Shown here one piece after another: positions 9,269 through 12,604 of a stretch of DNA of 47,470 bases (position 1 is the stretch's first letter; the number at the start of each line of letters is the position of its first letter). Under the pieces are notes generated by a model. The model worked only from the letters and a program-made list of their open reading frames with translations. It searched no databases and was not told the DNA's origin. The translations under genes were made by a program, and so were the position numbers. The DNA comes from an uncultured Algoriphagus sp. (lineage in GTDB: Bacteria > Bacteroidota > Bacteroidia > Cytophagales > Cyclobacteriaceae), in assembly GCA_903952135.1 (NCBI GenBank), contig CAJBER010000019.1, positions 1-47,470 on the forward strand, in the 5' to 3' direction.

Positions 9269-11014
9269 TTATTTTTTCCAACTAGCCTTTCCGCCCTTGG
9301 CAGAATCTACAGTGACACTGTAAGCAGATCCTGAAGAAACAATCCATCTTACTTGTACAGCTCCCATTCCAGGAATATTGGCTACCGCCATTTTTTCAGG
9401 GGAATTGGTCTGCTCTTTGTACTTTTTCATGTCTGCATCTTCCACTACAAATCCTGCCACCACCTTAGCTCCAGAAATCGTTACGTAGTCTGGACGCTCG
9501 ATGCGGTACTTCAAGTCTTGGCTAGCGTGAGTTGGCATCATGCGCTCGTTGAAAATCGTGGCAGTTACGGCCTTCAAGCCGCCGCCTAAATCCTCCTCTT
9601 TCACGTCAGTGATGGAAAGCTTTGGCGTATGGTAGGCATGGTAAATGGTAAAGGCTGCATTGCGATGCGCATCTTGCTCCAATAGAAATCCTGGATGCGC
9701 TCGTCCAAAGGTCTTTTTGAAGCCCCCGATCTCAACAGTTCCAAATTGCGGATGCTTGTATTCTTTGTAGTTGACAAAGGCATCACCAAATGTCAATAGC
9801 TCATCCACTTTGAGTTGCTCCTCTTGGTTGCCTCGTCCTGCCTCTTTATTGAAGTACAGGTAAGACACCATGAGTTCGTTGGTGTAGGTAAAGATTCCAC
9901 GATTGCCATAAAACCAATCCAGCTCCCCGCCAAATACAGAGTACAGATCCTTGTAAACCGTCAAGTAACGGTAGCCTGGAATCATTTCTTCTCCCTTTTT
10001 GCCTATCGCATCGTAGATTCGGATATCCTCTCGATTGTAGGTATTGAGATCTTCTTCAGCACCTGGTCCACGAAGGATCATTCCCCCAGAATTGTGGAAA
10101 CTCTGGGCTCCTGCAATGTTGGAGTGCTTCCAAACAAACTCCATCACCGCACGATTTTCAGGGAGGGTAAATGGATAGCGCATGGCACCTCGCTGAATGT
10201 AATCCGGCTGCCAGTTCCAACCCCAATCCCGGTTGGGATCGTAATAGCCGATACCATCTTCGTTAACTTCACCATCGCCATCGTTGTCGACACCTTCTTG
10301 ACCGAGCATTTCGTACTCTCCTACCTGGTCAGGACCTACTTGCATCAATCTTCTAGGATCAAGTGGATCTTTGATAAATCTACCCGTTGGAGACTTGCGA
10401 ATCATCATGGTGATGTGACCATCGCCATCTAGGTCATCCATTCTATCCTCGCCATTTTTGCCATCTCCATCGTTATCTAGCACGAGCATACCGGAACGAG
10501 GGGAACTCGCCGTATTGGGTTCCTTGAAGAAGTTATTTCGAGCATCTGGGTTGATAGTCGGGGTGATGTAAAAGGTCTTGTCTTTTAGGAGTTGCTTCAC
10601 AAATTCATTGTCCCCATGCATCTCGGTCAGGTACCAAGCCACATAGAGGGAGAATTCACCCCCCTGTACCTCGTTGGAGTGGATGTTACCATCGATCCAC
10701 ATGGCCGGCTTGTCGGTATCCTTGCCTGTAGCGAAGTCGGTGATGGTCAAGGTCAAGATATCTCTACCTTCCACCGACTTGCCGATGGATTCGATTTTGG
10801 CAAGTTTGGGATGTGCTACTGCGATTTTTTTCATCAAATCCCAAAGCCCTTCTGCGCTGTAATAGCGGTTCCAAGCAATCTCCACCTTGGGCTGGTGCGG
10901 CGTGCCGATGGCCCGAAAGTAATTTTCTTGTTGTGCACTTACTTCAATGGAACTTAGCGATAAAGCTCCCAAAGCCAAGGCAGTTAGCGTATGTTTGATA
11001 GTGTTGATCTTCAT
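9269..11014 (-). CDS. M14-family zinc carboxypeptidase with DxDxDG calcium-type loops
   Basis: This 581-residue exported protein has a signal peptide ending near residue 28 (EVSAQQ). The M14 catalytic domain shows all expected residues: zinc ligands His112 and Glu115 in GNIHSNEVQG, third ligand His307 in SFHNSGG, and catalytic Glu380 in YTNELMVSY. The part between ligands two and three is enlarged and holds calcium-type loops (LDNDGDGKNGED at 179, LDGDGH at 195, VDNDGDGEVNEDG at 242), as in dockerin/thrombospondin-3-like motifs. The C-terminal 150 residues look like a beta domain. It should hydrolyse C-terminal residues of peptides, or cell-wall peptides, outside the cytoplasm. It is the second gene of a pair; the stop of the upstream paralogue is 3 bp before this start. 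Confidence 0.9.
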   Translation of the reverse strand: MKINTIKHTLTALALGALSLSSIEVSAQQENYFRAIGTPHQPKVEIAWNRYYSAEGLWDLMKKIAVAHPKLAKIESIGKSVEGRDILTLTITDFATGKDTDKPAMWIDGNIHSNEVQGGEFSLYVAWYLTEMHGDNEFVKQLLKDKTFYITPTINPDARNNFFKEPNTASSPRSGMLVLDNDGDGKNGEDRMDDLDGDGHITMMIRKSPTGRFIKDPLDPRRLMQVGPDQVGEYEMLGQEGVDNDGDGEVNEDGIGYYDPNRDWGWNWQPDYIQRGAMRYPFTLPENRAVMEFVWKHSNIAGAQSFHNSGGMILRGPGAEEDLNTYNREDIRIYDAIGKKGEEMIPGYRYLTVYKDLYSVFGGELDWFYGNRGIFTYTNELMVSYLYFNKEAGRGNQEEQLKVDELLTFGDAFVNYKEYKHPQFGTVEIGGFKKTFGRAHPGFLLEQDAHRNAAFTIYHAYHTPKLSITDVKEEDLGGGLKAVTATIFNERMMPTHASQDLKYRIERPDYVTISGAKVVAGFVVEDADMKKYKEQTNSPEKMAVANIPGMGAVQVRWIVSSGSAYSVTVDSAKGGKASWKK

Positions 11015-11017
11015 GGC

Positions 11018-12604
11018 TTAAAATTTTACAGTTTGGGAAACAAAACCTGCATGCGGAGCCCCTGCTTTCAGTTGCACCGGACCCTTGCTTCGCACAATCC
11101 AGCTAAAGCTTGTCTTTTCAAATGCTCCCAACGAATCAACTAGCTTCACCTTATCTCCTGAAACAAGCTGGTCTGCGGCCACATCAATATCTACCCGAAG
11201 CTTACGCAACCAACGAGAGCGAGTGCCCATCTCTGAATGGGTAGCAAGCGGAGAATTATTAAATAAATCCACCGTCACACGCGTCAATCCATTTCCAATT
11301 GCCTCTGTTTTGAGGTTGTGGAATTCCAGTTTGGGTTGCATTCCAGCCAGCTTCAAGATAAAATCAGTATGCTGCTTCGCAATTTCTCCTACTTTTTCAA
11401 AGGGAGGATTGATCAATAGAAATGGCTTGACACCCCCAACTTCTACTTGTTGGTTGGGAAAATCAGGATGTTTTACTGCAGTCCAGGGCACAAAAGTATC
11501 CTGCTTCAAGGAATCAGACCAAGCCAAGAAATTGGCTTCGGCGTTGGTTTTACCCTTGTATTCAGGGTTCCAGTAGGCTGGCGTAGAAAAGCTGTAGCGC
11601 GCAAAGTGGAAATAGGCCCATTGGAAAAAATCCCCATCTGTACCTTGGTTGGTTTGTTGAAAGGCTTTGGCAGGAACCGTTTTGGTGTAGAGTTCAGACA
11701 CCATAGCATTGGTAGCCTGATCTTTTTCCAAAATAGAAGTTACTACGCGCTTGCGCGCATCTCCTGCCGAATACTTCAGCGGGGCACTCAAGTTATTGGC
11801 TGGTGAAAAGGTCACAAAGGCAAAAATATTCCACTGCTCAAAGAGGTAGTCCAATAGGGCTCTACTCTCGAGTTGAGACACTGCAATATCTCCTGCTAGT
11901 GGTTCAAATACGGGAAATTTATAGGTCAAAGATTTATTAAAGGCAATGCCCTCGGTGAGGTCTTCTGCAAACTTGCCGTCCTTGTCGCTGTCTATACTTT
12001 CCTTAAAGACCCTGTATTTTCCAGCTTCTCCTTTGGCTCGGTCTGCTTTTACCAAGACGCGGGCATCTTCTTTGGAAGTCGTCCAGTCCCCCATAGGGTC
12101 TGCGACGCGCATCCAGGTAATCATCCCATCTCCATTCAAGTCGCTGTAGCCATTGTCTCCAGCTACCCCATCACGGTCGTGGTCGATGGCTACGGCATTG
12201 CCTCGACGCTCGTACTTCAAGGCATCGTGGTACTGTGCATAGGCATCTGGAGAAAGGTTGGGAAATACATAAAAGGTAGTGGCTTCAAGCGCCTTGGCGT
12301 TTTCTCCAACCAGCTTTTCGGCAAACTGCAGGGCCAATTCCACGCTGAGGACATGGTATCCTTCTACCCCACCCACTACTGCAATCGCAGGCTTTTGGTC
12401 TTTGGCTCCGGTACCGATCTTCAGGGCATAAATTTCCTTGCCTCCAGCAGTCTTGGTAAGCGTCTTTAACTCTACTGCTGGATTAGCGCTGAGTTTTTGG
12501 ATGCGTTGAGCGGTCTGACTGAGTGTGGGGTAGTCGCTTTGGGCAAAAGCATTGCCACAAATCGTTGTCGCCAGCAACAGTCCAAAAAAGAGGTGTTTTC
12601 TCAT
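11018..12604 (-). CDS. M14-fold paralogue with replaced zinc and catalytic residues (probable pseudoenzyme)
   Basis: This 528-residue exported protein (signal peptide ending FAQS at about residue 23) aligns along its length with the active M14 enzyme encoded just downstream. Shared landmarks include KPAxxxxG, the FYxxPxxxPDA segment, DRDG/LNGDG loops and the C-terminal WIV segment. The active-site residues differ: HSNE becomes EGYH (Glu81, His84, an inverted HxxE), the third zinc ligand in SFHNSGG becomes Ser267 in TFSPANN, and the catalytic Glu of YTNEL becomes Ser in YSFST (around 338-340). It may bind peptides without cutting them, act as a partner or regulator of the neighbouring enzyme, or use a different metal site; none of these is proven. 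The reading frame is intact with no sign of decay. It is the first gene of the pair. Confidence 0.85.
   Translation of the reverse strand: MRKHLFFGLLLATTICGNAFAQSDYPTLSQTAQRIQKLSANPAVELKTLTKTAGGKEIYALKIGTGAKDQKPAIAVVGGVEGYHVLSVELALQFAEKLVGENAKALEATTFYVFPNLSPDAYAQYHDALKYERRGNAVAIDHDRDGVAGDNGYSDLNGDGMITWMRVADPMGDWTTSKEDARVLVKADRAKGEAGKYRVFKESIDSDKDGKFAEDLTEGIAFNKSLTYKFPVFEPLAGDIAVSQLESRALLDYLFEQWNIFAFVTFSPANNLSAPLKYSAGDARKRVVTSILEKDQATNAMVSELYTKTVPAKAFQQTNQGTDGDFFQWAYFHFARYSFSTPAYWNPEYKGKTNAEANFLAWSDSLKQDTFVPWTAVKHPDFPNQQVEVGGVKPFLLINPPFEKVGEIAKQHTDFILKLAGMQPKLEFHNLKTEAIGNGLTRVTVDLFNNSPLATHSEMGTRSRWLRKLRVDIDVAADQLVSGDKVKLVDSLGAFEKTSFSWIVRSKGPVQLKAGAPHAGFVSQTVKF

Follow-up and report, generated by a model that had tools for sequence, protein, structure and literature searches.

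A putative M14-fold pseudoenzyme encoded beside an intact M14 carboxypeptidase in Bacteroidota: a candidate two-subunit unit

The window analysed here, the whole stretch of 47,470 nucleotides from an uncultured Algoriphagus sp. (contig CAJBER010000019.1), encodes on its minus strand two adjacent relatives of M14 carboxypeptidases, called A and B below, followed by a flavodoxin-like gene:

11018 to 12604, minus strand: A, a putative M14-fold pseudoenzyme of 528 aa, open frame with an ATG start
11015 to 11017, minus strand: gap of 3 bp separating the stop codon of A from the start codon of B, by the frame coordinates
9269 to 11014, minus strand: B, an M14 carboxypeptidase with intact catalytic residues, open frame of 581 aa
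8613 to 9281, minus strand: flavodoxin-like product (FMN_red, 48 bits)

An earlier reading made from the sequence only had described A as a complete frame lying 3 bp from an active gene, and the coordinates bear this out. The short gap is consistent with a single transcription unit, and both products are probably exported, judging by eye from an N-terminal hydrophobic stretch in A and from the N-terminus of B. The flavodoxin-like protein encoded after B also seems to carry an export signal, an unusual feature in a flavodoxin if real.

Both proteins match the Pfam family Peptidase_M14 (PF00246), A with 53.8 bits and B with 130.3 bits (cut-off 21.6), and NCBIfam profiles match neither. They share 24% identity over 486 columns (BLASTP, E 2e-27), and comparison of the A profile with the B profile gives E 7.4e-64 (hhalign). 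In both comparisons EGYH of A stands opposite HSNE of B without a gap, as the sequence-only reading had aligned them. A search of PDB sequences with A returned weak matches only (best E 1.3e-05). The AlphaFold2 model of A (48 rows, pLDDT 73.6) has carboxypeptidase T as its top structural match (Z 22.1 over 250 residues, 3.0 A), tied with carboxypeptidases of the A/B type (Z 21.9). Unlike A these are active enzymes, they are also the sequence matches of B, and set against them A and B have in common an inserted region with DxDxDG-type loops, putatively calcium-binding by resemblance. In the model E81 and H84 lie between strand 73-78 and helix 85-101, which is the place of HxxE by sequence alignment, and the active-site loops at 215-242, 269-290 and 318-326 are of low confidence (pLDDT <50). 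The model of B is of poor quality (pLDDT 49.9).

Carboxypeptidase residues H69, E72, H196, R127, R145 and E270 are numbered here as in Table 2 of PMC11266112. B keeps H112, E115, H307, E380, N261, R262, Y358 and R173, with H112 and E115 invariant across 79 near rows. Facing the zinc ligands and the catalytic Glu, A has E81, H84, S267 and P342. The exchange of the third zinc-ligand His for Ser267, already proposed in the sequence-only reading, is seen in the BLASTP and joint MAFFT alignments; hhalign has a gap at this column, and no His is nearby in A. The same reading was mistaken in having the catalytic Glu become Ser, as Glu380 of B faces Pro342 of A in BLASTP, MAFFT and hhalign. This E270 place holds Pro in 141 of 146 distinct A sequences, leaving A without this general base. 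Counted after removal of duplicates and of proteins shorter than 330 aa, none of H69, E72, H196 and E270 is kept in 138 of these 146 sequences and a single one in the other 8. All four are kept in 134 of 145 B rows, a set that includes two rows of a third M14 type (L213, L214) and one cut by a contig end (L038). Homologues of A with a normal HxxE, named beforehand as evidence that would overturn the reading, did not appear, since no A keeps more than one of the catalytic residues. We infer that A is without peptidase activity.

The replacements are less uniform than the loss. Position 81 of A is E in 115, D in 17 and K in 8 of the 146 distinct sequences, position 84 is H in 106, Q in 21, E in 7 and D in 4, and [DE]xxH stands at the place of the zinc motif in 97. 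Among the 81 near rows of A, E81 is invariant and position 84 is H in 68, E in 7, Q in 3, D in 2 and another residue in 1; seven other Algoriphagus loci have EGYE instead of EGYH. Because of this variation [DE]xxH is common but not required. The idea of an inverted ExxH as a conserved zinc motif is therefore not borne out, and ExxH as a conserved metal site was rejected on the 146 sequences; what stays constant is the loss of the catalytic residues.

Two further positions are referred to by the numbers N144 and Y248, which we take to be the corresponding carboxypeptidase numbers. At the N144 place, N223 of A is N in 128 of the 146 distinct sequences; position 224, at the R145 place and K224 in A itself, is K or R in 141; and R133, at the R127 place, is R in 137, with this last match coming from hhalign alone and the R133 column left unaligned by joint MAFFT. 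The counterparts of the substrate-carboxylate clamp thus appear largely retained in A. Three other residues, H333, R336 and S338, are kept in 142, 139 and 143 of the 146 and are not shared by B. Over 75 rows, hand-picked segments of the former active site of A have a median entropy of 1.38 vs 1.78 for the rest of the domain (p 0.014), and the true active site of B is far more conserved (0.78 vs 1.54). From these patterns the pocket of A looks rebuilt, not merely decayed.

Purifying selection on A is strong. Of 120 sequence pairs for each gene, 23 of A and 18 of B had a dS between 0.05 and 1.5 and were used; their median dN/dS was 0.057 (A) and 0.026 (B). Each of the 60 genomes examined from the genus, counting the source genome, has a match to A, partial in two (G051, G055). 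Of 155 related stretches the 80 best were kept; the nearest of them come from Algoriphagus and other Cyclobacteriaceae, along with a few MAGs labelled otherwise or more broadly. B lies directly downstream of A in 78 of the 80, and the other 2 end at a contig edge. At the level of the order, A (E<=1e-30) occurs in 83 of 390 genomes and 24 of 129 genera. Of 32 such loci, 28 have B adjacent, 1 stops at a contig end, and the remaining 3, from a single genus labelled g24, lack an adjacent B. In a sample of 395 Bacteroidota genomes, 43 gave matches, 7 of which were set aside because their hits were all weaker and fell on B or on other kinds of M14 protein; this leaves A in 36 genomes, and B (E<=1e-150) is present in 37. 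All 36 genomes with A also carry B, side by side in 35, and the sole genome with B only (G561) has its B beginning at a contig edge. Absence in the order and phylum searches is soft, because the three best candidates per genome were scored.

A was found without B alongside in four genomes, two with B on a separate contig (G083 and G614, the latter being the exception in the phylum sample) and two with no B within the stretch (G140, G168); three of the four belong to g24. In every adjacent pair fetched A comes first, then B. As to the check suggested beforehand, whether EGYH is conserved and always adjacent to an intact M14 gene, A nearly always adjoins B, EGYH varies, and in one genus, discussed below, B is broken in half of the genomes. 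Outside the pair the gene surroundings are variable. A wider operon was considered and rejected, since the flavodoxin-like gene was present at 24 of 179 loci searched, at some of them at least 1 kb from the pair, and no other family reached more than 3 of 16 families. The commonest of these, an ABC-type ATPase by eye, occurred at 8 of 66 loci, in 3 of 16 families. Two genomes have one A followed by two B genes in a row (G542, L187 6215-11360; G744, L190 499-3980); a frame shift divides the A gene of G542, and in G744 one B copy is without the third His.

In phylogenetic trees well-supported branches (99 each) separate the A from the B sequences, and the A side amounts to a clade only where the root falls outside it. 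The exception is one pair of A sequences (L189, L191) placed next to the B side. A collection of 72,556 plasmid records held one relative, a haloarchaeal M14 protein with HATE, and with this very long row added to the tree the branch between A and B kept supports of 99/96 and 100/99. The relative, encoded on a haloarchaeal megaplasmid (L265 4968-6629) and active-looking, scores about equally with the A profile (194.7 bits) and the B profile (184.8 bits). The A and B subtrees broadly match, with a long row (L197) in differing positions in the two. Pairwise distances of A and B correlate with r 0.95 for 128 loci and r 0.82 for a distant set of 52; having no control gene pair beside it, the correlation speaks for joint inheritance only and is no evidence of contact. 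One genome of family f26 (G785) is placed among rows of family f1 in both the A and the B tree, suggesting that the two genes were transferred together. Overall the pair is ancient and widely distributed, with representatives in several classes of Bacteroidota.

A genus labelled g111 departs from the rest in its B. A and B are adjacent in all 16 of its genomes (L215-L230), and in 8 of the 16 one or more zinc ligands have been lost from B, by differing routes; the altered first motifs read ISNE, RSNQ, HANQ, HSTV, ALQD, LYET, LHDP and SHNG. In a ninth genome (L218) the zinc ligands of B are kept and the N144 and Y248 places are changed. Distances in this genus are saturated (dS about 2), and at the level of dN the 8 genomes with a broken B have a median of 0.565 for B vs 0.364 for A, and the other 8 have 0.100 for B vs 0.128 for A. 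Because the pair is retained despite a broken B, catalysis is not always the point, and in g111 the pair has a use independent of a live B. The genus is a natural series for study: the live partner lost its zinc site in varied ways, and the pair was kept.

The nearest known mechanism, by analogy, appears to be that of the M16B peptidases, in which an active zinc subunit works with a homologous subunit lacking the zinc motif, the two being encoded in prokaryotes by a two-gene operon (PMC11266112). Like mitochondrial MPP alpha/beta and its prokaryotic homologues, A and B are an active protein and a motif-less homologue arranged as a two-gene unit, as seen in 78 of the 80 near loci and 35 of the 36 phylum-sample genomes. 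The two cases differ in fold, M16 with HxxEH as against M14, to which A belongs by Pfam and by fold and B by Pfam, and in that the heterodimer is known for M16B and would be a proposal for A and B. Within M14, domain III of carboxypeptidase D has A72, D196, T145 and Y270 in place of active residues (PMC11266112, Table 2) and, like A, is a pseudo-domain that accompanies active M14 domains. It differs in lying within one vertebrate polypeptide, in keeping H69 and in having Q and T for R127 and R145, where A has aligned basic residues and no H69. AEBP1/ACLP, CPXM1, CPXM2 and yeast Ecm14 are M14 pseudopeptidases as well (PMC11266112; PMC7706225). These are eukaryotic, and according to the table in PMC11266112 all of them keep H69 and E72, neither of which A keeps; the parts of that article drawn on here mention no pairing of them with an active M14 gene, and the M14 pseudopeptidases they name are four vertebrate proteins and one from yeast. 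Our searches of open-licence full-text literature brought up no bacterial M14 pseudoenzyme described as the partner of an active M14 enzyme. The pair, present in several classes of Bacteroidota, is a tractable bacterial system for the role of a dead peptidase toward its live twin.

The recurrence of a dead-plus-live pair in distant Bacteroidota suggests that A and B work as one unit. We propose, at a probability of about 0.5, that they form an enzyme-pseudoenzyme unit, the two subunits of one exported carboxypeptidase. A and B would assemble as a heteromer with A as the non-cleaving subunit, whose basic clamp (Arg133, Asn223, Lys/Arg224) and newly conserved pocket (His333, Arg336, Ser338) would hold C-termini, those of peptides or of cell-wall peptides being the candidates. 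A would position or stabilise B in the manner of the inactive alpha subunit of M16B peptidases, and the EGYH residues would be part of the rebuilt pocket, not a zinc site. Peptide binding is the candidate role of A that we favour. Co-occurrence, adjacency, purifying selection and broadly matching trees strongly support the earlier suggestion of a maintained pseudoenzyme coupled to an intact M14 enzyme, but its role as a mere regulator of the active neighbour is weakened, because half of the 16 g111 genomes retain the pair with zinc ligands missing from B. More tentatively, the pair may be an ancient two-subunit M14 unit of Bacteroidota in which the dead site of A is now a C-terminus pocket; in at least one genus the unit would have become a pure binder through loss of the second zinc site.

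The clamp residues retained in A could also belong to a free-standing binder of peptides or peptidoglycan, an extracytoplasmic receptor for C-termini that has its pathway and promoter in common with B and makes no contact with it. Such a binder would fit the pair outlasting zinc-ligand loss in half of the g111 genomes and the existence of unlinked copies of A, but the presence of A only with B in 36 of 36 phylum-sample genomes, a figure with no control gene pair, goes beyond what a loosely shared pathway needs, and we consider it rather unlikely. A folding or export chaperone of B, or an inhibitor acting in trans, without a ligand of its own, seems unlikelier still: A does precede B in every adjacent pair fetched, yet its former active-site segments show extra conservation, modest in effect, for which a pure chaperone has no need.

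The proposal that Glu81 and His84 build a new metal site, making A a differently metallated enzyme, draws on [DE]xxH in 97 of 146 sequences and on E81 in 81 of 81 near rows. However, Q, E, D or others also occur at position 84, K stands at position 81 in 8 of 146 sequences, EGYE is found at seven Algoriphagus loci, and A shows neither a conserved third ligand nor a conserved general base. Since position 84 and, more distantly, position 81 change, this part of the sequence-only reading is unsupported, and we think such an enzyme highly improbable. The lost catalytic residues and the frame-shifted A of G542 would be expected of a decaying duplicate on its way out, an explanation that dN/dS of ~0.06 and open frames in relatives from several classes leave with next to no credibility; on the same dN/dS, A as a pseudogene was rejected.

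Beside the heteromeric unit proposed for A and B, the searches brought up a third M14 type, a protein of 639 aa (L263 5161-7080, G000:C234) that has HSGE and retains the base (GDELW). Asp occupies the place of the third zinc His (NSMDT) in 16 of 16 copies examined, and this type may use a His/Glu/Asp zinc site. At L263 a peptidase gene, S9-like by eye, lies 8 bp downstream.
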